DNA of 44,987 nt, taken from positions 1-44,987 of the forward strand of contig JARNMJ010000034.1 in NCBI GenBank assembly GCA_029432795.1, written 5' to 3'. Within the stretch, counting starts at the first letter, position 1. Each line of letters starts with the position of its first letter. The notes under the pieces are model-generated. The model saw only the letters and a list, made by a program, of their open reading frames with translations. It made no database searches and was not told the origin of the DNA. Source of the DNA: Pontiellaceae bacterium B12219 (GTDB lineage Bacteria; Verrucomicrobiota; Kiritimatiellia; Kiritimatiellales; Pontiellaceae). Position numbers and translations under genes: made by a program. Shown here piece after piece: positions 8,989-25,108 of the stretch.

Positions 8989-9963
8989 TTGGACTATCTG
9001 CAACGCGCACATGAAGTATTGGAAATTGAAACCGCCGGAATTCAAAAAGTTAAAGCGGATTTAGGCGAAGGGTTCATTCAGGCCATCGATGCCATTCTGG
9101 CCACCATCAGCAACGGATATGGAAAAGTGGTCGTGGTCGGAGTCGGGAAAAACTGGCACATCGGAAATAAGATGGCTGCCACCTTCACCAGCACCGGCAC
9201 CCCAGCCGTCGCGATGCACCCGATCGAAGCCATGCACGGCGACTTCGGTATTTTATCCGAACACGACATTGTCTTAGCCATGAGCTATTCCGGCGCATCA
9301 GACGAACTCATTGCCGTACTCCAACCGGTAAAACGCAAAGGCGTCAAAATCATTGCCCTGACCGGCGAAATGGATTCCCCGCTCGCCAAGCACGCCGACA
9401 TTATTGTTTCCGTGAAAGTGGAAAAAGAAGCCTGCCCGTTCAATATGGCGCCCACCACCAGCACCACAGCCACCCTCGCCCTCGGCGATGCCATGGCGAT
9501 GGTCCTGCTCGAAGCCCGCGGATTTAAGATTGAAGATTATGCCGCCCGGCATCCCGGCGGCGCGATCGGCCGCACCCTGCTGCTCCGCGTGGCAGACGTG
9601 ATGCGAACCGGAAACCGCTGTGCCACCGTGCAGTCCGGCCAACTCGTGCGGGAAGCCCTGATTGCCATGACCGGCGCGAAAGCCGGTTGTGTTGCGGTGA
9701 CAGACGATCAGCAGAAACTGCTGGGAATCATCACCGACGGCGACCTGCGCCGTCATCTGATTGAAACCCCGAATCTAACCGAGCACACGGTGGATGAAAT
9801 CATGACCCGCAGTCCGAAAACATTAACCCAGGATATGCTCGCCGTAGAAATTCTGAATATTTACGAGCAGAGCAACATTGATGATCTGGTGGTGGTAGAC
9901 GATCAGCAACGGGTTATCGGTGCAGTCGATATTCAGGACATGCCCAAACTGAAAATCCTTTAA
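8989..9963 (+). CDS. kpsF: KpsF/KdsD-type D-arabinose-5-phosphate isomerase
   Basis: The enzyme converts ribulose-5-phosphate to arabinose-5-phosphate, the first committed step to Kdo, the sugar that links ABC-exported capsules to lipid. The 324 residues hold an N-terminal SIS domain (about 40-175, with SYSGASDEL and CPFNMAPTTSTTATLALGDA) and two CBS domains (about 205-256 and 270-322). The start is TTG at 8989 behind a GGAGAG site. An oddity: the loop that is KSGHIG in E. coli KdsD reads KNWHIG here (K54-N55-W56-H57), so Ser-Gly is replaced by Asn-Trp next to the conserved Lys and His. Its stop overlaps the stop of kpsT on the other strand. Confidence 0.93.
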   Translation: MDYLQRAHEVLEIETAGIQKVKADLGEGFIQAIDAILATISNGYGKVVVVGVGKNWHIGNKMAATFTSTGTPAVAMHPIEAMHGDFGILSEHDIVLAMSYSGASDELIAVLQPVKRKGVKIIALTGEMDSPLAKHADIIVSVKVEKEACPFNMAPTTSTTATLALGDAMAMVLLEARGFKIEDYAARHPGGAIGRTLLLRVADVMRTGNRCATVQSGQLVREALIAMTGAKAGCVAVTDDQQKLLGIITDGDLRRHLIETPNLTEHTVDEIMTRSPKTLTQDMLAVEILNIYEQSNIDDLVVVDDQQRVIGAVDIQDMPKLKIL

Positions 9964-10613
9964 GCACAACTCGCGTTATAGGCGCTGAGCAGTGACTCAA
10001 CATCGTCATGATAGGTCAGCCCGGCATGGGTCAGCAGCAGGCCGCAATCGCAATAGGATTTAATCGTCCCCAGCGAATGCGAAACCATGATGATGCGGGA
10101 GTGATCCAGTTTCTGCTCCAAAGCTTCCTTGCTCTTGCGCCGGAAATTGGCATCGCCCACCGCCGTAATCTCATCAATCAGATAACAGTCAAAATCAATG
10201 GCCATACTCAGCCCGAACGCCAGCCGGGCCTTCATTCCGCTGGAATAGGTTTTGATCGGCAGCCGCATCGACTTCCCCAATTCGGAAAATTCTTCCACAT
10301 AGTCAATGACCCATTCGGTGTCCTGCCCGTAAATCCGCGAAACAAACCGCACATTTTCCAACCCGGTCATCGACCCATTGAAACCGCCGGCAAAACCCAG
10401 CGGCCACGATACGCGCACGTTTCGGGTGATGCGTCCGCTGTCGGCCTGCTCCGTTCCGGCAATCAGCCGCAGAAGGGTTGATTTTCCCGCGCCGTTCGGC
10501 CCCATGATGGCGATATTACGTCCCTGCTCGAACCGGAAATTCAGATTCTCGAAAATCACCTTCCGCACTTTTTTCAGAGTGTACGCTTTGTAGACATCAA
10601 TCAGCTCAATCAT
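9960..10613 (-). CDS. kpsT: Capsule polysaccharide ABC transporter ATPase KpsT
   Basis: This ATPase powers export of the lipid-linked capsule across the inner membrane with KpsM. It is 217 residues, the family size. The Walker A motif is GPNGAGKST at 38-46, the signature is YSSGM at 123-127 (typical of polysaccharide exporters in place of LSGGQ), and Walker B is CYLIDE at 143-148 followed by ITAVGD. The start at 10613 is fixed by the ATGA overlap with the kpsM stop; a longer reading frame to 10682 would run into kpsM. It is the last gene of the eight-gene capsule operon and converges on kpsF with no terminator between. Confidence 0.95.
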   Translation of the reverse strand: MIELIDVYKAYTLKKVRKVIFENLNFRFEQGRNIAIMGPNGAGKSTLLRLIAGTEQADSGRITRNVRVSWPLGFAGGFNGSMTGLENVRFVSRIYGQDTEWVIDYVEEFSELGKSMRLPIKTYSSGMKARLAFGLSMAIDFDCYLIDEITAVGDANFRRKSKEALEQKLDHSRIIMVSHSLGTIKSYCDCGLLLTHAGLTYHDDVESLLSAYNASCA

Positions 10614-11383
10614 ACAGACACCCGTTTTTTCCGGTAAAGCCGTTCGCCCGCCAACCCCAATAATAACAGTACCAGACTGCACCCCACCACATAGGTGCGG
10701 CTCAACACCATGCTGTCATAGTTTGGATAATATCCCGTGCGCACCCATTCGATCAGATGCATCACCGGGTTCCATTTCAGTATGGCAAGAGCCTCCGGAG
10801 GAAGACGGCTGGGAATATAAAATACGCCTGAAATAATAAACAACGGCCGGTTTATCACCTGCTCCACATACTGCCACGATGCCCACTGCGACAAAACCAC
10901 CGCATTAAACGTTCCGGAACCGAATCCCAACAGCGCAATCGCCCCAAATGCATAGAGCAACTGATCCGGATGCCGCGGAAGATCGGCGAGCCCAAAGATG
11001 ATCAGAACCGAATAGAAGATCAGCATAATCACCAGGTAGGTGGCCGAAATCAGCAGGAAGCGCGCGAAAAGCGTGTCCGTTTCTTTAATAATCGGATAGG
11101 TCAGCAACGCTTTATTGGCATTGAATGTGGTCATCAGCGACGAAGAAAGTTTGCGAAAGAATTCCAACGTCAGATACCCCGTTGCAAAAAAGAGTGCCAG
11201 ACTGGAGCCGAACGGGGGAAGACGACCGATTGAGGCAAATACCAATACCAATATGGCCACACCGGCCGCCGGAGTGGCAATGGCCCAGAGATAGCCCAGT
11301 TGCGAGGTGCCGAAGGTTGCGCGGGTTTCGCGCAACACCAAAGCCCCGAGCACTCTTGCCTGTAATGCCAGAAGTTTCGCCAT
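10610..11383 (-). CDS. kpsM: Capsule polysaccharide ABC transporter permease KpsM
   Basis: This 257-residue inner-membrane permease has about six hydrophobic segments, a family-typical N-terminus (LRETRATFGTSQLGYLWAIATP) and the conserved late segment FIISGVFYIPSRLPPEALAILKWNPVMHLIEWVRTGYYPNYDS. The length matches E. coli KpsM. The ATG at 11383 has AGGA eight bases upstream and leaves a 10-bp gap after kpsE, so I prefer it to an ATG at 11419 that would overlap kpsE. It overlaps kpsT by four bases. Confidence 0.94.
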   Translation of the reverse strand: MAKLLALQARVLGALVLRETRATFGTSQLGYLWAIATPAAGVAILVLVFASIGRLPPFGSSLALFFATGYLTLEFFRKLSSSLMTTFNANKALLTYPIIKETDTLFARFLLISATYLVIMLIFYSVLIIFGLADLPRHPDQLLYAFGAIALLGFGSGTFNAVVLSQWASWQYVEQVINRPLFIISGVFYIPSRLPPEALAILKWNPVMHLIEWVRTGYYPNYDSMVLSRTYVVGCSLVLLLLGLAGERLYRKKRVSV

Positions 11384-11393
11384 ACCGCCGATC

Positions 11394-12545
11394 CTAGGAA
11401 AGGTGATCCCGCACTGCATAGACCATCAGAGTTCCGATCCCCCAGAGCCCGGCAGACACCACGAGCATCAGAACCGGGTAGAGTATTTTACGCGGATACA
11501 ACGGAAACTCAGGTAACGACGGCTGACTGTACACCGCGAGATAGCGCTGTTGCCGTCCAGCCTCCACACGAGCCGTTTCGAGCGATCCCAAAGCCGAAGC
11601 ATATGCTTTCTGGGCAAAACTTTTTTCCACCTGAAGTTCTTCATATTCCGCCAGCAATTTAGACAAATCATCCTCCGAGCCGGACACACGAATCCCCCCG
11701 CTTTTTTCCGCAATCTGTTTTTCGAGGGCTTCAGCCTGACGGCGCAGGGTGGCTAATGAGGGCGCATCCGGATCAACCGTTGTTTCAAGCGCAGCCATAC
11801 GCCCCCGGACGGTGAGCAGATTTTTCTCGAGTCCGGCAAGAATTTCAATCTGAGCCAAAGCACTGGCGGCGGGATCAAGCGATTCTCCCAGCTCGCGGAA
11901 CTTGCGTAAATCCCGCAAAGCAGCCAACAGGCGCTCCTCCGCCCGCGCCACCTCTCCTTCCGCAAAAGAAACGGCATCCGAACGGGCCTGTTCCGATAAC
12001 GTATTCACAAGCGTTTTGGAATAGTCCAGCACAAGCTCCGCCACCCGCAGCGCATCCTCCGGTGAAAAACCCTGAATTTCGTAAGTAATGATTCCTGAGG
12101 TTGGGTCAAAGCTCGTCTGAATTCGGCGTTCCCAGTATTTCAGTACTTTTTCAACATCACGATCAGGCCAGAGACGGGAAGGCCAATCAATGGATTTTGC
12201 TCCATAGATGGCACGGAAATCAAAATCCTGCTGAAGCTGATCCAACAAATCGCGACTCTCAAGAAAGTTCAGCAGCATATAGGCATCAGATGTCGTTGAA
12301 CCACTGCCAGCCAGTCCGGTGAAAGCGCCGAGATAATCAGCCCCCCCATTGGTTGTTACAGTCCGTACCGAAAACCCGGCCCCGGATACATACCGGTCCG
12401 AAGCAACAAACGTGGTATAGACTGTTCCGAGAAGCGTCGGCAAAATGACGCATAGAATGAACGATACTTTCAGCCAAAACCTTCGCTTCGCCCGCGGACG
12501 CACAGGTAGTAACGACTGCTTCTTTTCTTTGTTTTCTTCCGTCAT
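11394..12545 (-). CDS. kpsE: Capsule export inner-membrane/periplasmic adaptor KpsE
   Basis: KpsE/CtrB/BexC proteins span the periplasm and couple the KpsMT exporter to the outer-membrane OPX channel. The 383 residues carry one membrane segment near each end (about 25-48 and 355-378) and a long coiled-coil periplasmic part rich in Glu, Ala and Arg. Both the layout and the length match E. coli KpsE. The start at 12545 lies behind an AAGGA site located inside the end of kpsC and only one base after the kpsC stop. An open extension to 12749 is rejected because it would read through kpsC in another frame. Confidence 0.93.
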   Translation of the reverse strand: MTEENKEKKQSLLPVRPRAKRRFWLKVSFILCVILPTLLGTVYTTFVASDRYVSGAGFSVRTVTTNGGADYLGAFTGLAGSGSTTSDAYMLLNFLESRDLLDQLQQDFDFRAIYGAKSIDWPSRLWPDRDVEKVLKYWERRIQTSFDPTSGIITYEIQGFSPEDALRVAELVLDYSKTLVNTLSEQARSDAVSFAEGEVARAEERLLAALRDLRKFRELGESLDPAASALAQIEILAGLEKNLLTVRGRMAALETTVDPDAPSLATLRRQAEALEKQIAEKSGGIRVSGSEDDLSKLLAEYEELQVEKSFAQKAYASALGSLETARVEAGRQQRYLAVYSQPSLPEFPLYPRKILYPVLMLVVSAGLWGIGTLMVYAVRDHLS

Positions 12546-12546
12546 A

Positions 12547-14460
12547 TTAAGCATTCCTTCTAAGCCCTGATTCGGACCATTTCCGCACGATTTTACGGCG
12601 GACCCGCCGCCACAAGGGCATGCGCGATGGACCTTCCGCCCGCCAATCGACCAGCTCTTCAACGGCCCGCTCGGGGGAGGTGAACGCATCCGTTGTGCGG
12701 CTGACATAGGTTGGATACAGGATGAGTGCTCCTGCAACAAGTTCATCAAGATTAAGTTTCCGGGTACGCCGTTTGATCGGATCGATATCTGTCGTTAACC
12801 CCCACCCGGCATAAAATGGATTTCCATGACACGTCACCGGAATCCCCCGCAGCAACGCTTCGAATCCTGTCAGCGAGGTGAGCGTGTGCACTTCATCAAC
12901 CTGATCAAACAGCTGCACCGCGTCTCCGGCTGTGATGATTTCATCGCACCACTGAAGGACCTCGTCCTCACCCTTCCCTTTCAGACGAAGTCCGGCCACC
13001 ACATCCGGATGCGGTTTATAAACCACATAAGCCTCCGGATTCGTGGCGCGCACAGCTTTCAATAACCCCAGATTGGTTGATTCCGGCGGCGCACCAAAGC
13101 GGATTGAAGCATCGTTTTCCACCTGCCCCGGAACCAGAATCACGTGACTCGCGTGTTCCGGACGCGTCCAGCGCGCTCCGGCCAGATTATATTTTCCGAT
13201 CCCCAGCGAAACGATCGTTTCCCTTAAACGCCCCGCCCGCTCCAAAAGCGCATCATCGAACACCTGTTCCTGCAGCATATGCTCCAACCGCGAGGGCCGG
13301 GTTGCATCATAATAAATGCCTACATCATCAATCACCCACGAAAGGGGACGCACCAGATCACCGCCCAGACCGGACGAACGCAAAAAGCCGTCTTCCACCC
13401 GCAAAATGTTCCAATCTCTGGAAAGGCCGTCCGGCTGCGCACTGCCCCAAACCACGACGGTTGATTTCGGTGGAATTCTATCCGCTGAAACCGAAAATTG
13501 AATTTCCGAACCCTGGAAGAAAAATTTAAGCAATGGTTTTTTCCACGGTGAGAAACCGAGTGCATACAGGGTTGCGGGAAAACGCGACTGCATGCGGCGT
13601 TGCAGGCCGATGTATTCCATCACCGTTTCCACTTCGCAACGTCCGCCCCGCTCCGGATCGATATAACGGGGATAGTCCACCAGAGCCGCATGCACCAGTT
13701 GCTCCAATGTTGCAGCGCCCCGCCGTTCCGGAGCCGGCAGTTCATCCTGCGTCAGCCCCCAGCCCGCGTAAAACGGCATGCCGAAACACCGCACCGGTTT
13801 GCCCCAGATTAACGCTTCAAATCCGACTTGCGACGTGACGGTATAGACCGAGTCCGCAAGCTCAATCAACCGCACCGGATGGCAGCTTTCGGCCACCATT
13901 TTAATGCGCGGATTTTTTTCCAAGGTCTGGATGTCGAAATGCCCCGCCTTTTTCCGGGTGTAAATATCCGGATGCATTTTCACCACCACCGCCGAATCCG
14001 GATTTTCATCGAGCGCCGCTTTTAACATCGTCCGAAATGAATCCGCATTCGCTAGCCCGTATTCAACCGACAGATCGCCGGCCACCTGATCGACAACCAG
14101 TACATAGCGCTCCGGCAGCTCGCCAGCATACTCCCGCGCGGCGTTGTATTTGGATAAACGAAGTGCTCGCCATTGCTCAACCAATCGGTTTGCCCGTACT
14201 TGCTCCCCACTTTCCAAGGACATAAAAATCAGTTTTTCCAATCGCGAAGGCGCTGTCGCATCATAATATATTCCGACATCATCGTTCACAATCGAAAGAG
14301 CCACATCTTCCCGTCCCATGGAACGCAAGACCCCGTCTTCTTGCAGGATAAAGTTTGCATCTTTATTCCCCGCATTAAGAACAGCTAACCTACCGGATCT
14401 CTTTCGTCCCCATCCGACATTCTCCGCTTGCATATAATTTATGGATCGTGAGGTGCGCAT
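12547..14460 (-). CDS. kpsC: Capsule Kdo-linker glycosyltransferase KpsC
   Basis: KpsC extends the beta-Kdo linker that joins capsule to phosphatidylglycerol. The 637-residue protein shows the two tandem modules of the family. One has LQEDGVLRS and IVNDDVGIYYDATAPSRLEKL near residues 39-80. The second has VEDGFLRSSG and VIDDVGIYYDATRPSRLEHML near 357-400. Each module later carries a pair such as FGMPFYAGWGLTQDE and HGNPFYAGWGLTTD. In characterised KpsC proteins the two modules are two different Kdo transferases. The ATG at 14460 has only a weak ribosome-binding site. It sits between the O-acetyltransferase gene and kpsE. A TTCCAR dyad lies within the second module (13409-13423). Confidence 0.93.
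   Translation of the reverse strand: MRTSRSINYMQAENVGWGRKRSGRLAVLNAGNKDANFILQEDGVLRSMGREDVALSIVNDDVGIYYDATAPSRLEKLIFMSLESGEQVRANRLVEQWRALRLSKYNAAREYAGELPERYVLVVDQVAGDLSVEYGLANADSFRTMLKAALDENPDSAVVVKMHPDIYTRKKAGHFDIQTLEKNPRIKMVAESCHPVRLIELADSVYTVTSQVGFEALIWGKPVRCFGMPFYAGWGLTQDELPAPERRGAATLEQLVHAALVDYPRYIDPERGGRCEVETVMEYIGLQRRMQSRFPATLYALGFSPWKKPLLKFFFQGSEIQFSVSADRIPPKSTVVVWGSAQPDGLSRDWNILRVEDGFLRSSGLGGDLVRPLSWVIDDVGIYYDATRPSRLEHMLQEQVFDDALLERAGRLRETIVSLGIGKYNLAGARWTRPEHASHVILVPGQVENDASIRFGAPPESTNLGLLKAVRATNPEAYVVYKPHPDVVAGLRLKGKGEDEVLQWCDEIITAGDAVQLFDQVDEVHTLTSLTGFEALLRGIPVTCHGNPFYAGWGLTTDIDPIKRRTRKLNLDELVAGALILYPTYVSRTTDAFTSPERAVEELVDWRAEGPSRMPLWRRVRRKIVRKWSESGLRRNA
13409..13423. repeat. TTCCAR-N3-YTGGAA dyad inside kpsC
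   Basis: A perfect match. On the coding strand it is read as S-R-D-W-N, and the identical 15-mer with the same peptide context (S-R-D-W-K) recurs in kpsS at 20980-20994. The codon phase differs from the F-Q-x-L-E copies. Confidence 0.9.
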
Positions 14461-14497: not shown

Positions 14498-15235
14498 TTA
14501 TGGTGATTCAGTTGACAACATTTTGATTGACAGATCTCCTGCAACACGGGTTACGCGATATCTATCAGGAGTAAATCGCGACAAGCGTCCATTCGTCTTT
14601 TTTTTAAAAAAATCATCCAGAAAATTTCTCACATCGGCATATTTGTATTTTTCCCCAACAGGCGGCTTCCAGTTCCACCATTCCGCATCCTGCAGGCGCT
14701 CTATAATCGTTTCATCAAAACGATAGCGAATCAGGCTAGCAGGATTGCCGGCAACAATGGCATAGGGAGGAACGTCTGCATTCACAAATGAGTTCGCGCC
14801 GATAATGGCTCCGTTTCCCACGGTAACGCCTTGCCGAACTATGACATTTCTACCAATCCAAACATCATTTCCTACAACCGTTTTTTTGGAATTTCCTTTC
14901 CAGGGCGTTTCATCGCTCAAAAAACGTTCCCAGCTTTCGAAATCAGAGAACCAGCGCAGACCGTCATACTGTACTGGATGAGAAGAAACCCAATCAATTG
15001 GATGTTCAGGAGGACCAATCGCGACATTACGCGCAATAGAACAAAAACGGCCAATTCCAGCATTTTTAATTTCTGACCCCGGCCCAATGTATGAAAAAGC
15101 GCCGATCGACTCCGAGCCCAAACACCCTGTGTGAGGCAGTCGGACGGCTGGCTCGAATTCAATCGAACGGGTAATCTGATTCAGATTACTAATCAACAAT
15201 CCCAATTTTGCCAACTCTCTCGTACTTGTCGCCAT
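14498..15235 (-). CDS. Left-handed beta-helix acetyltransferase (CatB/XAT-like)
   Basis: This 245-residue hexapeptide-repeat protein probably adds O-acetyl groups to the capsule or its precursor with acetyl-CoA. Repeats with the I-G-x-x-x pattern run through about 40-75 and 120-165. They are interrupted by the loop GPPEHPIDWVSSHP, whose H78 corresponds to the catalytic His of the xenobiotic acetyltransferase class, and are followed by the family-typical GNPASLIRYRF. A GGAG site lies nine bases before the ATG. It sits between kpsC and the 1155-aa protein, in the AT-richer middle of the locus where strain-specific capsule genes normally lie. The acceptor is unknown. Confidence 0.88.
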   Translation of the reverse strand: MATSTRELAKLGLLISNLNQITRSIEFEPAVRLPHTGCLGSESIGAFSYIGPGSEIKNAGIGRFCSIARNVAIGPPEHPIDWVSSHPVQYDGLRWFSDFESWERFLSDETPWKGNSKKTVVGNDVWIGRNVIVRQGVTVGNGAIIGANSFVNADVPPYAIVAGNPASLIRYRFDETIIERLQDAEWWNWKPPVGEKYKYADVRNFLDDFFKKKTNGRLSRFTPDRYRVTRVAGDLSIKMLSTESP

Positions 15236-15253
15236 GGTAGCCCGCTCCGATAC

Positions 15254-18200
15254 TTAAGATTGTGTAGATAAGCGATAATAAGATTTCATTATTGAACTGC
15301 GTGAGTCCTTGAAAAACAGGTCCCGGTCTTTCTTGTATTTATTATACTTTCGGTCATTTACAAATCGACGGACGAAAAAGTCCTCAAGAGGATTCACCCG
15401 TGCCGTATTCCCTGGAATCGGGCTGACTTGGGCGGTGCTGTCTGGAGGGACAGTTCTGGACTTTCTTTTGGGATTTTTCGGCTTCGAAGATTTATGCGTC
15501 TGTTTACCGTTAAAAACCGCCTCTGCGCCCTTCTTCCATACGGAAGACGAAAGCGTATCCTTCTGCTCGGGGTTAATAATGTATTTTTTCTGAATTCCCC
15601 CCATGGAATCTTCAAACGATTTCCCCAGCAGCATTTCAGCATCACACTTTGCCGGTTTTTCATAAAAATATCGCAAGCAGGATTCCGCAAGTGAGGGATC
15701 GATATGAATCTGTTCTGAAAAACGGCCAAAATGTCGCTTATATTCCCGGGAAAAACGGATAATTCCGTCATGAACCAGTCCTATAAACCGCGTTCTGTTC
15801 GCTCCGTCCGGGTCAAAACGGAATTCCGGAGATCGCTGCCCCTCCCGATCACGCATACGAACAAACGAGGGCTCGCCGCAGCACAACAAATATTCTGTTA
15901 AATGACGATTCTGAACTACGACTGATGAAGTAAGTGCCTGAGACAGATTTTTACCGAAATAACATCTATGCCTATCCCCTAGCACTTCCCATTTTTCGCC
16001 ATCCTGTAAAGTCGCATAATAATATCCCGTCAACCGCCGATCTATCAGTAAACCCAGTGCACCCTGAATATTGGCTTTCCAGCCAATGTCAACTATGCCC
16101 GGATCATCACATCCAAGAAATCCGACCTCGTCCAAATATTCCAGATAAGCCGAACGTTCGATTGCAGCGTTTTCCAGAATATCATGCTCAAGAGCATCAC
16201 AGGCTGTCGCTATAAGACGTCTGTCCTCATACGATCTGCTCAGCTTTGAATTCACATCACGAATGCCCACAACTTTCAACCGGTCAATCCTCTCCGGGGT
16301 TAAAGCGAGTCCATAACGACCATCCAGTAACGCCGCTAAAGAGACCCCGGGATCGTACGGCATTGCACTCAAAGCCAGAATATCCGCTCGGTTTTTCAGG
16401 CCAGCCACCCGAATGGCTCTTCTGGACCCATATAGATAAGTAGATCGAATCGCATCCTCCCGATTCCCAAACAGTTCTTTATAAACTTCATGAAAGATCC
16501 ACCCCTCGCGAGCCATGAAAAACAAATGGCTGATATTATCTCGTCTCGCCTCACGCTCCAGCCAAATTACATAAGCAATCACTAACGGCCCTAATCCTGA
16601 AAATCCAAGAAGATCAGCCCGTCCCCTGAACAGAGAAGCTAACGCTTCCTTCGGCACCGGAGCATCAAATAAGTGATTTGCAATTAAACCAGCAATAGCA
16701 CTTCGAGCCTTTTCTCCTGCACCCGCCCGAGGAGAATATATATTCTTATAGTGAGCATTTGTTCTCATCCATTCAATGGCACTCGACCACCTGAATGTCG
16801 AAATACCTTTCACTTTTGCAGCATTGATGTCGGTTTGTTTATTATCGCCAACATGCAACAACGATTTAGGCCGCAAATTTAATTCCCTCAATGCGATGTC
16901 ATACAACCCCCCATCGTGCTTTCTGCATTCATGCTCCGCAGAGAGAAAAAATGCCCCATGCGAGGTATACCCAGATTTACGCAACATTTCTTCAATCACT
17001 TTTCGAGGGAGGTACATATCGGAAATCAGATAAACAGGCAGACGGGATTCAATAGCCAGATTGTATAGCTTTTTCCCGAAATCGCGACAGGAGGAAAAGG
17101 CGAGCTCAATTTTCACTTCCTCATCCTTCAGAGCAGCTAGCTGTGCGTCAGTCAATCCATAAAATTCGCGCACGGTTTCATATATATCTTCCAGGGAGAT
17201 TTCTTTCTTTGCAGGCAACCGCTCACGTGTCGCAACCTCACAAAGAGCACGGTTCTTTCCGAAATCAACCGCAACCCCATCCGTAACTTCGAGAGCCCGC
17301 AGCTCAAGGAACTTATATACATCCGCAGGCTTTTCCACAGGACGACGTATCAACGTGTCGAAAACATCGAATGAAACCGCCTCGATATCTCCTGAATCAA
17401 GACGATCTTTAAATTCATTAAGTATTTTATGCGATGCACTCCACTCACATGTATTGCTTTTCCTCCGCGCTTCATGCGTCAGTCGAAAACCACCCAACAA
17501 TTTCGAAGCATAATCGTGATCGATGGAACCAAAGTCCGGAAGCAACTCAATTCCAGAACAGCCACTCTGTTTTCGAACAATCATCTCCTTCAGTAGATTC
17601 ACTAGAAAGGAAGAATCTGCCGTCACGGAATGCGCCAGCGGTTGATGCTTCGACAAAATAAATTTCAATGTATTTTCAGTAACATCCGCCCACGTTAGCG
17701 ATGACCCTTGCAATTCATTATAATCATACTCATCTAGATATGACGTTCCATACGTTGCCAAACGTCTTTTCCAGGCGAATGATTGCAAGCCAAGGGAAGA
17801 TGATACGGTCTTGACTTCGCCCACGAACGGCAAAAGGAATTGAGACACACTGTTTATTTTTTCCAGGTCCGGGTTATAAATCAAATTAGGAAACCGATCC
17901 GAAAGCGACTCCAACACATCAAGATTCAGCGGTGCATCCTTAGCAATATTTGAAACATATTGCGTAACAACAACCCCCTCATTTTCTTCTGAATTCTGAA
18001 GTACATCAAGCAACAGATCCATCTGACTTTCATAACCGGAATTAGCAAGAAACGCGTAATGCCCCGTAACCTGTAACGGCAGCAATGAAACCTTCTCCCA
18101 TTTTTCCAGTGATGCAATAAACGAAGGATCTATCACCTGCTGTTCATCAATATGAGCACGCACCCGAGAGGAAAAATCAAAGACAAGATCTTTGCTTGAT

Positions 18201-18721
18201 ACCTCTCCTTCAAATTCCTGAACCTCTTTCGCGTGGCGATGCAGCATACCCTTTCGAAATAAACCCACCGGATCAAAGATCACGGTATGCGGATAAGGCG
18301 CCCGGCTGAAAATCCCCGGCATCTGATGCACAATTACCGCATCAGTAAACATCCGCTCCAAAAATGGAACAGGAGTTTCCCATAACAAAATCGCGTCATA
18401 GGATTCATCCAAATAGCTCTCAAGCCGTTTTTGGATATTTTCTATGAAAACAGAATCATCCTCCAGATAGAGCGAAACGTATGCTCGTGCATCTGATTGC
18501 CCCAGATCCTTGCCAAACTCGAACGGCAAAATAACCGGTTTAATTCCTGCATGCAGATGTTTGATTTCATTCCTGAAAAATTCCGGAAGAACAAAACTCA
18601 CCGAAACCCCAGCCTCACTAAGCAGATTTGCTTGAGGAATCAGATGCTTTCGAGTGCAATTTCGAAAAAAATCATATTCGCCATTTGAGGGCCATGGCGG
18701 AACCCAAAATAGTATATTCAT
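15254..18721 (-). CDS. Large GT-B-like / HAD-fold capsule biosynthesis protein (COG5610-like)
   Basis: The protein has 1155 residues. Residues 1-380 resemble a capsule-type GT-B glycosyltransferase: an N-terminal NILFWVPPWPS strand and a later segment TVSSSLGLQSFAWKRRLATYG like the nucleotide-sugar half. Residues about 447-650 are a HAD domain of the COG5610 type, with motif I SFDVFDTLI (D452), motif II LISDMYLP (S567) and motif IV HVGDNKQTDINAAK (D626, D631). The usual second Asp of the DxD motif is Phe454, with Asp one place later at D455. Residues about 680-970 (FSGLGPLVIAYVIWLEREA, HLFFMAREGWIFHEVY) match the C-terminal part of the same family. The tail is basic. It is the only candidate polymer-forming gene in the locus. 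The bases are visibly AT-richer than the flanking kps genes. The exact reaction is not known. Confidence 0.7.
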   Translation of the reverse strand: MNILFWVPPWPSNGEYDFFRNCTRKHLIPQANLLSEAGVSVSFVLPEFFRNEIKHLHAGIKPVILPFEFGKDLGQSDARAYVSLYLEDDSVFIENIQKRLESYLDESYDAILLWETPVPFLERMFTDAVIVHQMPGIFSRAPYPHTVIFDPVGLFRKGMLHRHAKEVQEFEGEVSSKDLVFDFSSRVRAHIDEQQVIDPSFIASLEKWEKVSLLPLQVTGHYAFLANSGYESQMDLLLDVLQNSEENEGVVVTQYVSNIAKDAPLNLDVLESLSDRFPNLIYNPDLEKINSVSQFLLPFVGEVKTVSSSLGLQSFAWKRRLATYGTSYLDEYDYNELQGSSLTWADVTENTLKFILSKHQPLAHSVTADSSFLVNLLKEMIVRKQSGCSGIELLPDFGSIDHDYASKLLGGFRLTHEARRKSNTCEWSASHKILNEFKDRLDSGDIEAVSFDVFDTLIRRPVEKPADVYKFLELRALEVTDGVAVDFGKNRALCEVATRERLPAKKEISLEDIYETVREFYGLTDAQLAALKDEEVKIELAFSSCRDFGKKLYNLAIESRLPVYLISDMYLPRKVIEEMLRKSGYTSHGAFFLSAEHECRKHDGGLYDIALRELNLRPKSLLHVGDNKQTDINAAKVKGISTFRWSSAIEWMRTNAHYKNIYSPRAGAGEKARSAIAGLIANHLFDAPVPKEALASLFRGRADLLGFSGLGPLVIAYVIWLEREARRDNISHLFFMAREGWIFHEVYKELFGNREDAIRSTYLYGSRRAIRVAGLKNRADILALSAMPYDPGVSLAALLDGRYGLALTPERIDRLKVVGIRDVNSKLSRSYEDRRLIATACDALEHDILENAAIERSAYLEYLDEVGFLGCDDPGIVDIGWKANIQGALGLLIDRRLTGYYYATLQDGEKWEVLGDRHRCYFGKNLSQALTSSVVVQNRHLTEYLLCCGEPSFVRMRDREGQRSPEFRFDPDGANRTRFIGLVHDGIIRFSREYKRHFGRFSEQIHIDPSLAESCLRYFYEKPAKCDAEMLLGKSFEDSMGGIQKKYIINPEQKDTLSSSVWKKGAEAVFNGKQTHKSSKPKNPKRKSRTVPPDSTAQVSPIPGNTARVNPLEDFFVRRFVNDRKYNKYKKDRDLFFKDSRSSIMKSYYRLSTQS

Positions 18722-18741: not shown

Positions 18742-19893
18742 TTACTGCACAAACAACGTGCTCGTTCGGCTGATATCGAGCAGGGGTTGTACGTAGATTC
18801 TGATAAATTTGTAGTATTCGGCGGCGAAAGCATTGGCCACGTAGATGATGTCTTTGTCCTGCATGGCAAACGAGCGCGACAGGAAAAAGGCTTCGGGCTC
18901 TTTAAAATCGAGCCGGTAAATCGCGGCCGCGCGCCCATGAAAGAGGACGTCCGGCACCTCTCTGCCTGCTGCGCGCAGCACATCCGGATCTTCGAAACGG
19001 AACAGGAACACACCGCCGGCATCGGCCTGGCCATCATTCAGACCGCCGGCCTGAGCCAGCGCTTCAGCCAGGGAGAGCGTTTCGGTTTCAAAGGCGTGCC
19101 GGCTCTTGGAACTGACCGCCCCGAATGCGGTAAAGGTGCGCGGTTTATGCATCAGCTGCACGGTATCGCCGGGCATCATCCAGACATTGTTGTTTTTCTG
19201 CCCGAGCACTTCATCAAGCCGGATGGTATCGGAGATTTCACCGCGCACAATTTTGGCTTCGGCTTCATAAATCGGGGCGCGCGATCCTCCTGCGGCGGCT
19301 ACTGCATCGAGCAGGCGGACCCCGCCGATCGGTAACGGATAGCGACCGGGCTGGTTCACATCGCCCACCACCACGAGGTTATTGCTGACATTGGCTTTAA
19401 GGGCCACCTGCACCTGTGGCTCGACGGCTTTTCCCTGCAGTCCTTCTTCAATGGTGGAACGAACCTCTTCAATCGTTTTACCCGCCACCTGCACCTGCCC
19501 TACATAAGGAATAAAAATCGCCCCGCTTTCATCGATTACGGAATCGATGCGCGACTGCTTCTTTTCGAAGGTGGAAAACAGGCCGTCGCCGGAGGTTTCC
19601 CAGATGTTGATCACGAGCTGGTCTCCGATGCCGAGAACGGATTCGGGTTTTCCGTTCAATGTGGTGCTGAAACTTTCGTTCAGGGAAACTGGCCGGCGAT
19701 CGCCCAGCTGCTGCACAACATCCACGCTCAGCTGAATGACGGCATATTCGCGGTCATCGGCCGGTTCGTCCTGCACTTTGGCCATTTTATGGCGCGAAGG
19801 CCCGGAACCGGGCAGTGTTGAACAACTGCTGAGCAACAAACCTGTTGCGATGGCCGCTCCCCACGAATTAAATAGTTTTTGTTTATTCATCAT
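18742..19893 (-). CDS. kpsD: Outer-membrane capsule export protein (OPX, CtrA/BexD/KpsD type)
   Basis: This lipoprotein of about 383 residues forms the periplasmic/outer-membrane exit channel for the capsule. The signal sequence ends in the lipobox LLSSC. A polysaccharide-export domain follows (ESVLGIGDQLVINIWE through AIFIPYVGQVQVAGKT), then SLBB-type domains (VVVGDVNQPGRYPLPIGG; FTAFGAVSSKSRHAFET). Its size is that of CtrA/BexD rather than the longer E. coli KpsD, so the symbol is by role. The start is one of two adjacent ATGs (19893 or 19890); an upstream TTG is disregarded. It begins 11 bases after the kpsS stop and is followed after 20 bases by the large GT/HAD gene. Confidence 0.9.
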   Translation of the reverse strand: MMNKQKLFNSWGAAIATGLLLSSCSTLPGSGPSRHKMAKVQDEPADDREYAVIQLSVDVVQQLGDRRPVSLNESFSTTLNGKPESVLGIGDQLVINIWETSGDGLFSTFEKKQSRIDSVIDESGAIFIPYVGQVQVAGKTIEEVRSTIEEGLQGKAVEPQVQVALKANVSNNLVVVGDVNQPGRYPLPIGGVRLLDAVAAAGGSRAPIYEAEAKIVRGEISDTIRLDEVLGQKNNNVWMMPGDTVQLMHKPRTFTAFGAVSSKSRHAFETETLSLAEALAQAGGLNDGQADAGGVFLFRFEDPDVLRAAGREVPDVLFHGRAAAIYRLDFKEPEAFFLSRSFAMQDKDIIYVANAFAAEYYKFIRIYVQPLLDISRTSTLFVQ

Positions 19894-19904
19894 TTCGGTG
19901 CAGA

Positions 19905-21338
19905 TCAACTTGCGTTCCTGACTTTAAATTCAATGTGTTCGGAAAAACTTTCTTCCTGAAGCTTTGAGCAAACATTCCGGCAGGCCAGCCGAATTCCGCG
20001 AGCGGCATAGAAATCGCCAACCGCAAGCGCCCGATGCTTCACCCATCCCAAATAAGCTCGCCGTGTCTCGAAATTCGCCACCGATCCACCGGTCCAGAAG
20101 GAGTCAAAATCCGGATTGCCGTTTCCACAGGTCGCCAGTTCCGGATGGGCGTATAGCGCATTGCCAACCACCAGCAGCGGAATGCCATGGTAAATGGCGG
20201 AGAATCCGGACGTACTGTTAATCGTAATCATGCCGGCACTATGGCGCGTCAACAATCCAAGTGAACCGGTATCAAGCACATCAACACGCTCGCTGACCCC
20301 ATAGGCCTTGGCGGTTTCCCGGATCAGATGCTTATAATTACTATGTCCGCGGGCCAGCGGGTGAATCTTAAAAACCAGCCGTTTTCCGGGTGGAGCCTGC
20401 TTCGCAAATGATCGGAGCGTTTTCGAAATTAAATCAACCTGACTCCAGCCCATTGAAAATTCCTTTAACTGGCAATCGGAATCAACCTGAAGGGGAACCA
20501 GAAAATAGCCTCTATCGTGGTATTCCAGTAAATTCTGGATAATCATAAAATTAGTGGTCTGGCCTCGAACCCGCCGATAGACACTCCGCCCCCAGCAGAA
20601 AATTTCGGTCACCAGCGAAAACCGTTTATGATAAAGTTTCCGCTGTTTTCCGTATGTGAAAAGATTACGCAGGGCATAATAGACAATGTTGTGCCATACC
20701 TTCACGCTCCCTTCACGGAAGTTCTCCACCGGTTTCCCATCATCCAGATGCACTTCGCTATCGGCCGAGGGCAGGCAGCGTGCAATCGGAGAGCTCGCAT
20801 TATTTCCACTGTGCTCAATCGTGATGAACCCCGGACGTATGTACCCTTCCTCCAGCGAAATAACCTTTATCTTACATTGGGCAGCAACTTCCCGGGCAAT
20901 ACGATGAATCTCGCGCTCGGAACCGAACAGGATAATGCCGTCGATATTCGCTGCCGTAATGAAATCGCTCAACCAGTTTTTCCAATCTCTGGAACCCCCA
21001 TGGAAACTGATCCGCCCCTCTTTTCGGGAAAAGAACCGGTCGCCGGCGTTAAAACAGATCCGCCAAACCTCATATCCGCTATCCGACAGCGCGTCTTGCA
21101 AATGCTTAAAAAACGGTCCGACCGGTCCCTGCAACAGCATGATCCGTTCGCGTGACTTATGCCGGGAAATCCCCTTGCGCCCCAAATCAATAGGAAGGAT
21201 GCGCGACGTCACTTTGGCATCCGATCTCAGACCAGTCACCGATTTGTTTTTTATATACTCCACTGAAAAAAAGCCCCGTTTTTCTATAAAATTTATCTTT
21301 TCAACCAAACGTCGTACAAGCCGCGGAACAGACAACAA
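19905..21338 (-). CDS. kpsS: Capsule Kdo-linker initiating glycosyltransferase KpsS
   Basis: KpsS adds the first beta-Kdo to phosphatidylglycerol at the cytoplasmic face, starting the capsule linker that KpsC extends. Family blocks are clear: IMLLQGPVGPFFKHL, the CFNAGDRFF segment, ISLEEGYIRPGFITIE, VFKIHPLARGHSNYKHL and MITINSTSGFSAIYHGIPLLVVGNALY. The open frame gives 477 residues from a TTG at 21338. The first in-frame ATG is at 21140 (411 residues, close to the usual 390), where family similarity begins, so the N-terminal 66 basic residues may not be translated. It is the first gene of the operon, below a sigma-54-like promoter and an inverted repeat. Confidence 0.9.
   Translation of the reverse strand: MLSVPRLVRRLVEKINFIEKRGFFSVEYIKNKSVTGLRSDAKVTSRILPIDLGRKGISRHKSRERIMLLQGPVGPFFKHLQDALSDSGYEVWRICFNAGDRFFSRKEGRISFHGGSRDWKNWLSDFITAANIDGIILFGSEREIHRIAREVAAQCKIKVISLEEGYIRPGFITIEHSGNNASSPIARCLPSADSEVHLDDGKPVENFREGSVKVWHNIVYYALRNLFTYGKQRKLYHKRFSLVTEIFCWGRSVYRRVRGQTTNFMIIQNLLEYHDRGYFLVPLQVDSDCQLKEFSMGWSQVDLISKTLRSFAKQAPPGKRLVFKIHPLARGHSNYKHLIRETAKAYGVSERVDVLDTGSLGLLTRHSAGMITINSTSGFSAIYHGIPLLVVGNALYAHPELATCGNGNPDFDSFWTGGSVANFETRRAYLGWVKHRALAVGDFYAARGIRLACRNVCSKLQEESFSEHIEFKVRNAS
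20980..20994. repeat. TTCCAR-N3-YTGGAA dyad inside kpsS
   Basis: A perfect match, identical over all 15 bases to the copy in kpsC although the two genes are not homologous in this stretch. It is read as S-R-D-W-K. Confidence 0.9.
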
Positions 21339-23262: not shown

Positions 23263-23676
23263 ATGCCGCTGCACTATCTGATTGCCCTGTTTATCGGCCT
23301 GCCGATACTGGAATTTGCAGTACTGATCAAACTGCACGGCATGGTCGGCTTTCTGCCAACCGTACTGCTCGTTTTTCTGACGGGCATTGCGGGAGCGGCA
23401 TTGGTTCGCCGGCAAGGTGTTGCCACTCTCTTCAAGATTCAGCAGGAGATGAATGTCGGAAATCTGCCGGCCCCCCAAATGATCGACGGGGTCATGATTC
23501 TGCTGGCAGGAGCACTGCTCATTACTCCCGGCTTACTTTCCGATTGCGTTGGTTTTGCACTCCTCATTCCGATGGTTCGGGAGAAAATCCGCTTCTGGCT
23601 GCGAGATAAACTGAAAGAAAAAATCCGCAGTGGACACATCCAGGTAAACACAACCCGCCCGAATGATTTCCAATGA
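23263..23676 (+). CDS. fxsA: FxsA family membrane protein
   Basis: This 137-residue inner-membrane protein has three to four hydrophobic segments and the family pattern LIALFIGLPILEFAVLI near the start, GAALVRRQG near residue 47 and LLITPGLLSDCVGFALLIP near 86-104. E. coli FxsA is known for suppressing F-exclusion of phage T7 when overproduced; its normal role is unclear. It starts 13 bp after the PpiD-like gene and precedes the UbiA gene by 10 bp. Confidence 0.9.
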   Translation: MPLHYLIALFIGLPILEFAVLIKLHGMVGFLPTVLLVFLTGIAGAALVRRQGVATLFKIQQEMNVGNLPAPQMIDGVMILLAGALLITPGLLSDCVGFALLIPMVREKIRFWLRDKLKEKIRSGHIQVNTTRPNDFQ

Positions 23677-23686
23677 CAGGAACGGA

Positions 23687-25108
23687 ATGACAGCCGATAA
23701 ATCCATCCCGATCTGCGTTGATCTTGACGGAACCCTCGTCAAAATCGATACCCTGCATCAGGCACTTTTTCTGCTCTTACGGCGTAAACCCGCCTGCATC
23801 CTGCAGATTCCCGGTTGGATCCTTAAAGGAAAAGCGTACCTGAAAGATCAGGTCATGCAGCGGGTTGAGCTCGATGCATCCGTGCTGCCCTACAACACCA
23901 AACTGCTCAGCTGGTTGAAAAAGGAACATGCTGCCGGACGCAAACTGATTCTGGCAACAGCATCGAATTACAGAACGGCCAATGCCGTTGCGGAACATCT
24001 GGGTATTTTTGATGATATTCTGGCGAGCAACGCCGAAACCAACCTCCGCCACAACCGAAAACTGACCGCCATTCAGGAACGCTTTCCAACCTTTGGATAT
24101 GCCGGAAACGACAATGCCGACTTCCCGATCTGGGATGCCGCGGACATCGTGATTCTGGCCAATCCGAACACGGCCACTAAAAAAGGATATGCCATTCGGG
24201 CAGACCATATTTTTCTGGATCAGCGGACCTGGGGAAGCATGTTCATCAAGGCCATCCGCTGTCAGCAATGGCTGAAAAATCTCCTTATTTTTTCGCCCAT
24301 ACTGCTGGCCCACCGTTTTACAGACCTTGGAAACCTGATCCATGCCGGCATCGCTTTTATTGCATTCAGTCTGGCGGCCTCCTCGATTTACATTCTCAAC
24401 GATCTGTTCGACCTCAGTGCCGACCAGCATCATCCCCGCAAATGCCGCCGCCCCTTTGCCTCGGGAGATCTGCCCATTACGATCGGAGCACTAACAGCCC
24501 CGTTGCTGGTACTGACCAGTCTTTCCCTGTGTATTTTTCTGCCCTTTCCTTTTTTTATCACTCTGCTGATCTATTTCGGCATAACAACCGCCTACTCCTG
24601 GCGCGTTAAACAGATGCCGATCGCCGATGTACTGACCCTCGCCATTCTCTATTCCCTGCGCATCGTTGCCGGTTCCGTTGCAACCGGGACGGAGGTATCC
24701 GGCTGGTTCATCGAATTTGCCATTTTCCTCTTCCTGAGCCTCGCGCTGGTGAAGCGAACATCGGAACTCAAAGAAATACAGCATAGCGCCTCCGAGGAAA
24801 AATCAGCACGTGAGCGCGGATACAGCGTAAGCGACCTTCCGCTGCTGCTCAGTTGCGGCACCACATCCGGCTATATTTCGGTCTTCGTTTTCACCATGTA
24901 TCTGGGCAGTGATAAAGTGGCCGAACTCTATACCTACCCGAGCCTGCTTTGGATTTTCTGTCCCCTGCTGCTGTACTGGATCACCCGCATCTGGCATCTC
25001 GCATGGCACGGAAAAATGGAAGACGATCCCGTCGCCTTTGCCGCCCGCGATTCACAAACCTTTGTCGTCGGTGCCATCGGCATCGCAACCTTGCTTTACG
25101 CAATTTAA
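23687..25108 (+). CDS. HAD hydrolase-UbiA prenyltransferase fusion (DPPR synthase-like)
   Basis: This two-domain protein has 473 residues. An N-terminal HAD phosphatase (1-190) carries D12 and D14 in CVDLDGTLVK and a FGYAGNDNADFPIWDAA motif IV. A C-terminal UbiA-type membrane domain of about nine hydrophobic segments carries the Asp-rich NDLFDLSAD and the YSWRVKQMPIADVLT segments. This fusion type is close to decaprenyl-phosphate phosphoribosyltransferase-like enzymes, which transfer a sugar phosphate to a polyprenyl phosphate; the HAD part could then remove the phosphate. The substrate is inferred only. The ATG at 23687 with an AGGA site is preferred to one at 23663 inside fxsA. Confidence 0.88.
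   Translation: MTADKSIPICVDLDGTLVKIDTLHQALFLLLRRKPACILQIPGWILKGKAYLKDQVMQRVELDASVLPYNTKLLSWLKKEHAAGRKLILATASNYRTANAVAEHLGIFDDILASNAETNLRHNRKLTAIQERFPTFGYAGNDNADFPIWDAADIVILANPNTATKKGYAIRADHIFLDQRTWGSMFIKAIRCQQWLKNLLIFSPILLAHRFTDLGNLIHAGIAFIAFSLAASSIYILNDLFDLSADQHHPRKCRRPFASGDLPITIGALTAPLLVLTSLSLCIFLPFPFFITLLIYFGITTAYSWRVKQMPIADVLTLAILYSLRIVAGSVATGTEVSGWFIEFAIFLFLSLALVKRTSELKEIQHSASEEKSARERGYSVSDLPLLLSCGTTSGYISVFVFTMYLGSDKVAELYTYPSLLWIFCPLLLYWITRIWHLAWHGKMEDDPVAFAARDSQTFVVGAIGIATLLYAI

Follow-up and report, generated by a model that had tools for sequence, protein, structure and literature searches.

Closest characterised systems and the modules of the 1155-residue protein

Region 2 of the Escherichia coli K13 capsule locus consists of a transposase, an acetyltransferase and KrkA, the GT140-HAD-ribosyltransferase capsule polymerase of K13, K20 and K23, which adds 3-deoxy-D-manno-oct-2-ulosonic acid (Kdo) and ribose in vitro and was proposed as the K13 polymerase, being judged solely responsible for the repeat (PMC12887879). 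The K13 polymer produced by KrkA together with the acetyltransferase is of the ribofuranose (Ribf)-Kdo type. In Bcs3 of Haemophilus influenzae type b (CroT-CrpP-CriT), CrpP is a phosphatase and CriT transfers ribofuranose-5-phosphate from phosphoribosyl pyrophosphate (PRPP) (PMC10299916). In the present study, a stretch of 44,987 nucleotides of Pontiellaceae bacterium B12219 (the whole of it hereafter called the window) was found to carry a capsule locus encoding an 1155-amino-acid (aa) protein (15254–18721, minus strand), for which E. coli K13, with KrkA, is the closest characterised system. The comparison draws on computed module order, folds, residue changes and conserved gene neighbourhoods. 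By analogy, the 1155-aa protein would, on balance, be a single-machine capsule polymerase of the KrkA/Bcs3 type, with Kdo most likely as its second residue. Such machines are already known; a nucleophile-less N-terminal domain (N-domain) in a candidate of this type is new.

The 1155-aa protein comprised three catalytic modules, not two. The HAD domain recognised in the preliminary description lay at about residues 444–650 (16772–17392) and matched PF13242 (E 9e-5). It was followed by a phosphoribosyltransferase-fold module at about residues 651–1034 (15620–16771), which the preliminary description had not identified though it listed residues 680–970 for a fold search, and by a linker and C-terminal helices (residues 1035–1155, 15257–15619) collinear with the C-terminus of KrkA. 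In phmmer searches, the protein matched Bcs3 at E 1e-17 and 7SHG, a ribofuranosyl transferase, at E 6e-10. With a profile built from 11 relatives, the values were E 1.5e-49 for Bcs3, over 429–892, and E 4e-47 for 7SHG, the two matches together spanning 429–1028. The full AlphaFold model (mean predicted local distance difference test score, pLDDT, 79.9) matched 7SHG over 444–1034 (Z 27.8) and Bcs3 (Z 26.6). The solved protein 7SHG, a HAD-glycan phosphoribosyltransferase (gPRT) of Thermobacillus composti, resembles both C-terminal modules but has no GT-B domain. The architecture of a phosphoribosyl phosphatase followed by a gPRT, homologous to Bcs3 and 7SHG, was thus present. Catalytic positions were mapped through the Bcs3 profile alignment and the residues named in PMC10299916. 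All 11 relatives kept the nucleophilic Asp (D452), the Lys and the Asp of the HAD domain, as well as R738-E/D739 (Glu or Asp at 739 among the relatives), S766-R767 and the acidic D878 of the gPRT module. Residues 444–1034 are therefore likely to form a PRPP-dependent ribofuranosyltransferase plus phosphatase (CriT/gPRT-like and CrpP-like), with ribose transfer from PRPP as a predicted activity.

The HAD motif reads SFDVFDT, with Asp residues at D452 and D455, and the displaced second Asp had earlier been taken as a possible sign of unusual chemistry. The active phosphatase of Bcs3 conserves the first Asp of DXD but not the second (PMC10299916), and both Bcs3 and KrkA carry DIFDT; DVFDT is thus the normal form of the family, and unusual HAD chemistry was rejected as unsupported. 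The domain is best read, by analogy with CrpP, as a phosphatase that would strip the 5-phosphate from transferred ribose-5-phosphate.

KrkA was located in E. coli B20105 through a match to 9YFX (E 2e-236). By BLAST, it aligned with residues 447–1151 of the 1155-aa protein at 25% identity (E 5e-72), C-terminal helices included. The two proteins share length, module order, the HAD and phosphoribosyltransferase modules and the C-terminal helices, and region 2 pairs each of them with a gene for a CatB/Vat-like acetyltransferase, the CatB-like enzyme beside krkA being 36% identical to that of the window (E 2e-42). The window thus shows the KrkA-type layout, a minimal kps region 2 whose large protein runs from a GT-B Kdo-transferase-like domain through the HAD domain and the gPRT to the C-terminal helices, and the proposal in the preliminary description that the large protein is the polymerase is likely. 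However, the window protein comes from another lineage, and its N-domain is not detectably similar to that of KrkA by sequence, is nearer WbbB in fold and has neither the Asp of QxxxD nor the HP motif.

Bcs3 shares with the window protein the HAD phosphatase, the PRPP-dependent ribofuranosyltransferase, the DIFDT-type motif and the module order, and no other sequence matched the C-terminal half better. These likenesses favour a phosphodiester capsule polymerase whose N-domain would move a polyol phosphate as CroT does. However, CroT is a TagF-like cytidine diphosphate (CDP)-ribitol transferase, whereas the N-domain of the window protein is WbbB-like; PF04464 was absent from its Pfam matches up to E 1, a PF04464 protein was not found in the assembly and CDP-polyol genes were not in the locus. 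A phosphodiester is not expected here, and we regard this explanation as highly improbable. Of the likeness to polymerases of phosphate-containing capsules noted earlier, the resemblance to Bcs3 stands and the phosphate polymer does not; a polyol-phosphate product was rejected on the WbbB-like N-domain and the lack of a PF04464 match.

The N-terminal domain and its active site

As the preliminary description had expected for residues 1–380, structure prediction and fold search revealed a GT-B fold in residues 1–400 (17522–18721). The model of residues 1–399 (pLDDT 85.5) matched WbbB of R. terrigena, a retaining beta-Kdo transferase of GT99 (PMC9587256), in Foldseek (E 1e-13). In the VIA ranking, WbbB (Z 24.8, root-mean-square deviation 3.5, 337 aligned) was followed by KrkA (15.7) and KpsC (15.1), and all other GT-B enzymes in the list scored 11.9 or less. 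The N-domain thus had the fold of the retaining beta-Kdo transferases (GT99/GT107/GT140). A profile of 16 aligned N-domain members, drawn from several bacterial lineages, placed KpsC (GT107; hhalign 96.5%, E 7e-10) and KpsS (88%, E 3e-6) in the same superfamily and matched a GT99-like E. coli protein over nearly the whole domain (96.7%, E 4e-10). The kinship was deduced from structure and hhalign: Pfam gave a single sub-threshold match, to Capsule_synth (202–328, E 0.018), a phmmer search of the PDB with just the N-domain gave none, and profile matches to KpsC and WbbB were weak (E 0.15–1.3).

The active site was aligned to KpsC and to the GT99-like E. coli protein. Gln217 aligned with the Gln of QxxxD that binds the Kdo carboxylate, and residue 221 with the nucleophilic Asp. 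E115, R140 and Q217 were conserved in all 16 members, and T253, Q313 and D150 were likewise invariant, in proteins down to 23% identity. Arg140 corresponds to Arg163 of WbbB and Arg127 of KrkA, so that the Arg and Gln positions of WbbB are shared along with its fold, and Thr253 stands at the position of the cytosine-contacting Ser225 of KrkA. Glu115 lies in a WE motif (YE/WE at the general-base position of the two proteins), and its spacing of 25 residues from Arg140 equals that between the general base Glu102 and Arg127 of KrkA (numbers from PMC12887879); Glu115 was equated with Glu102 from its spacing, motif and position rather than from a residue-level structural superposition. Such invariance among 16 proteins of several lineages indicates that the active site was kept. 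It also argues against a degenerate, non-catalytic scaffold with the second sugar added by an enzyme encoded elsewhere, which the loss of the nucleophile and of the HP motif might suggest, but which appears very unlikely to us.

If the 1155-aa protein is a polymerase, its C-terminal transferase would add ribofuranose-5-phosphate from PRPP onto the growing chain, the HAD domain would dephosphorylate the added ribose at its 5-position and the GT-B domain at the N-terminus would add the second residue, most likely Kdo from cytidine monophosphate (CMP)-Kdo. The two-component polymer would grow on the KpsS/KpsC Kdo linker, be O-acetylated in part by the neighbouring acetyltransferase and be exported through KpsMTED. 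The beta-Kdo transferase fold, the invariant Gln217 and the presence of kdsA and kdsB elsewhere in the source genome speak for Kdo, as does the content of the smallest loci of the family, which have neither another sugar gene nor a gene for joining polymer to linker.

Several points weigh against this assignment. Residue 221 was His in eight and Tyr in eight of the 16 members and never Asp; position 255, that of the HP-motif His, was Tyr in 14 and His in two, with no Pro at 256; and where the relatives have a Glu in contact with the ribose of the nucleotide, every member had Gln313. Given these three losses, CMP-Kdo is not assured as the donor. Asp232, the base Glu158 and His265 of WbbB are represented here by H/Y221 (His in the window protein), P135 and Y255, the base probably being E115 instead; residues 218–226 were of low confidence in the full-length model. 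In contrast, KpsC and KpsS of the same genome and of relatives retained the Q and D of QxxxD and the H and P of HP in every copy. The hhalign comparison with the KrkA N-domain (GT140) was not significant (12.6%), and the kds genes beside the homologues may serve the linker only. The assembly, a draft of 273 contigs (96% complete), may carry a polymer gene elsewhere, and all of the activities, together with the donor of the N-domain, the stereochemistry and the polymer structure, are predicted from sequence and structure models.

The main rival explanation is a change of donor as the cause of the loss of the HP motif, the cytidine-ribose Glu and the Asp; the N-domain of a three-module polymerase would then move a sugar other than Kdo, supplied by a housekeeping nucleotide sugar, and the polymer would be of the Ribf-hexose type. 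The joint loss of three CMP-Kdo site residues in 16 of 16 members speaks for a changed donor, as do same-phylum relatives, fused to GT2 beside a Wzt-like ATPase gene, whose altered sites indicate that the fold diversified. Nevertheless, the nearest solved fold was clearly WbbB, with unrelated GT-B enzymes far lower, Gln217 (which holds the Kdo carboxylate in WbbB and KrkA) and Thr253 were invariant and the family travels without sugar-nucleotide genes; both the changed donor and the Ribf-hexose product are therefore regarded as doubtful.

Glycosyl transfer via a covalent Asp adduct, as in the retaining beta-Kdo transferases, is rare. Judging from the alignments, the N-domains of this family represent a nucleophile-less branch of that fold, and since the nucleophilic Asp was replaced while the general base was kept, transfer probably does not proceed through an Asp adduct. 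The simplest alternative would be a one-step inverting attack activated by Glu115, giving alpha-Kdo. We tentatively suggest, as a possibility that falls short of being probable, that these N-domains arose from the retaining beta-Kdo fold when the nucleophilic Asp was lost and that they transfer Kdo with inversion, with Glu115 as base, making alpha-Kdo-Ribf capsules. It is unlikely that the N-domain has remained a retaining enzyme that makes a K13-type beta-Kdo polymer with His/Tyr221 as covalent nucleophile. Position 221 is restricted to two residues that could both in principle form an adduct, the general base and Arg are retained and sialidases use Tyr as covalent nucleophile; however, we know of no example in a glycosyltransferase of the beta-Kdo transferase fold. 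Moreover, the D232, D193 and D160 mutants of related enzymes lost most or all activity (PMC9587256, PMC12887879).

A family with this fold and a kept active site but no Asp offers a natural test of how the Asp-adduct mechanism arose or was lost, and the nucleophile-less family is a candidate for inverting Kdo transfer. The alpha-Kdo of E. coli K16 and K74 would require an inverting enzyme (PMC13171606), a kind of enzyme that the inverting Kdo transferases suggested here, if real, would supply.

Family loci in other bacteria

Full-length relatives (23–41% identity) were found in Cupriavidus, Marinicaulis, Pararhizobium, Pseudovibrio, Sinorhizobium, Pseudomonas, Iodobacter and Aliagarivorans, and further full-length ones in Rhodobacter, Pseudomonas, Pelagovum and Sinorhizobium were plasmid-borne. 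The search with the N-domain alignment gave ten loci, and a direct protein scan of genome contigs gave no match. The loci of Pseudomonas TH41, Iodobacter, Cupriavidus and Aliagarivorans were minimal, with the kps genes (joined in some loci by kds genes), the large protein and no more than an acetyltransferase besides; no other apparent polymer gene was seen in these four kps loci, and no sugar-nucleotide genes accompanied the family in the loci examined. The next gene in Cupriavidus, Pseudovibrio and Aliagarivorans encoded a homologue of the window acetyltransferase; in Sinorhizobium such a homologue came after one intervening gene. Two further genomes of the order of Aliagarivorans carried full-length relatives, and a search of 296 genomes of that order with the large protein found no QxxxD-bearing polymerase.

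Among the E. coli kps loci catalogued in 2026 is a set with one open reading frame (ORF) of >1,100 aa that has GT99-like and ribofuranosyltransferase-phosphatase domains (PMC13171606). E. coli HYM1 (L083, 9890–13228) encodes a hypothetical protein of 1112 aa that is a cousin of the 1155-aa protein (E 9e-43; N-domain hhalign 97.6%), is also without QxxxD and lies beside a WcbI-like acetyltransferase and a cytidylyltransferase. This cousin was found in 12 complete E. coli genomes, which are untyped. Among the matches listed in surveys of E. coli kps loci for the K16 and K74 polymerases, KrkA (L080, B20105, and L081) and the 1112-aa cousin (L083) were found, with no sequence attributable to K16 or K74. 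A distant DNA search for the E. coli family copy, with relatives from the order Enterobacterales as query, gave no match.

In symbiosis DNA of Sinorhizobium americanum (L008, 10001–14973; L016), a full-length homologue and two hexapeptide acyltransferases lie between a nodA-family gene and nifHDKEN, away from export genes. In two Pseudomonas loci (L010, 7261–8937; L019, 13558–15141), the polymerase gene is followed by one for a protein of 527–558 aa, with an RRHP motif in the L010 copy, which may be a linker-joining enzyme or an additional transferase of the Kdo type. Of the same-phylum relatives of the N-domain, two carry a fused GT2 domain and adjoin the Wzt-like ATPase gene (L115, L116; L121, L122), and two stand alone (L117, L118). 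These relatives retained HP but neither Gln217 nor the Asp, and are perhaps O-antigen chain terminators like WbbB.

The kps locus and transfer of the gene pair

The window carries a complete group 2 (ATP-binding cassette (ABC)-dependent) capsule locus in which kpsM, T, E, D, C and S were all identified, on the minus strand except for the gene of KpsF/KdsD, the arabinose-5-phosphate isomerase for the Kdo precursor (8989–9963, plus strand). The latter is followed by genes for the ABC ATPase KpsT (9960–10682), the ABC permease KpsM (10610–11419), KpsE of the BexC/CtrB/KpsE family (11394–12749) and KpsC (12547–14460), the dual beta-Kdo transferase of linker synthesis, with both QxxxD/HP sets intact. 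The KpsE ORF as listed overlaps kpsC by about 200 bp, and its real start is probably downstream of 12749. Beyond the pair lie genes for the KpsD-type outer-membrane polysaccharide export protein (18742–19908) and for KpsS, the Kdo transferase starting the linker (19905–21338). As described earlier, the capsule-specific region between kpsC and kpsD/kpsS (18742–21338) consists of two genes only, that of the 1155-aa protein and that of a 245-aa O-acetyltransferase (14498–15235, minus strand), a CatB/Vat-like left-handed beta-helix protein with hexapeptide repeats. Both ORFs were intact and on the same strand as their neighbours, with gaps of 18–37 bp around the pair, and the kps cluster held no further glycosyltransferase or sugar-nucleotide gene.

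The AT-rich composition that had suggested transfer was borne out: the pair had a GC content of 0.45 and a third-position GC content (GC3) of 0.41–0.43, compared with a GC3 of 0.54–0.64 in the other capsule genes and sampled flanking and housekeeping genes. None of the 57 relatives searched had a full-length match to the 1155-aa protein. Four genomes of the same genus (L066, L067, L068, L069) had syntenic kps genes with other genes at the site of the pair. Region 2 was complete or nearly so in three of them, encoding a 740-aa protein in two (one with an adjacent 228-aa gene) and 767-aa and 235-aa proteins in the third; the fourth contig had two different genes beside kpsD. A region 2 of one or two genes is thus common in the genus, and because the pair is AT-rich, is absent from the 57 relatives searched and gives way to different genes at this position in same-genus genomes, it is a transferred, exchangeable cassette. 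One-protein machines for Ribf-containing capsules would extend past enterobacteria as such cassettes.

A gene for a HAD-UbiA fusion (23663–25108, plus strand) adjoins the kps locus of the window and occupies the same place in three of the same-genus genomes (L066, L067, L068) despite their other capsule cassettes. The UbiA family includes enzymes making polyprenyl-linked pentose from PRPP, and the fusion might supply ribose by another route, unrelated to the first.

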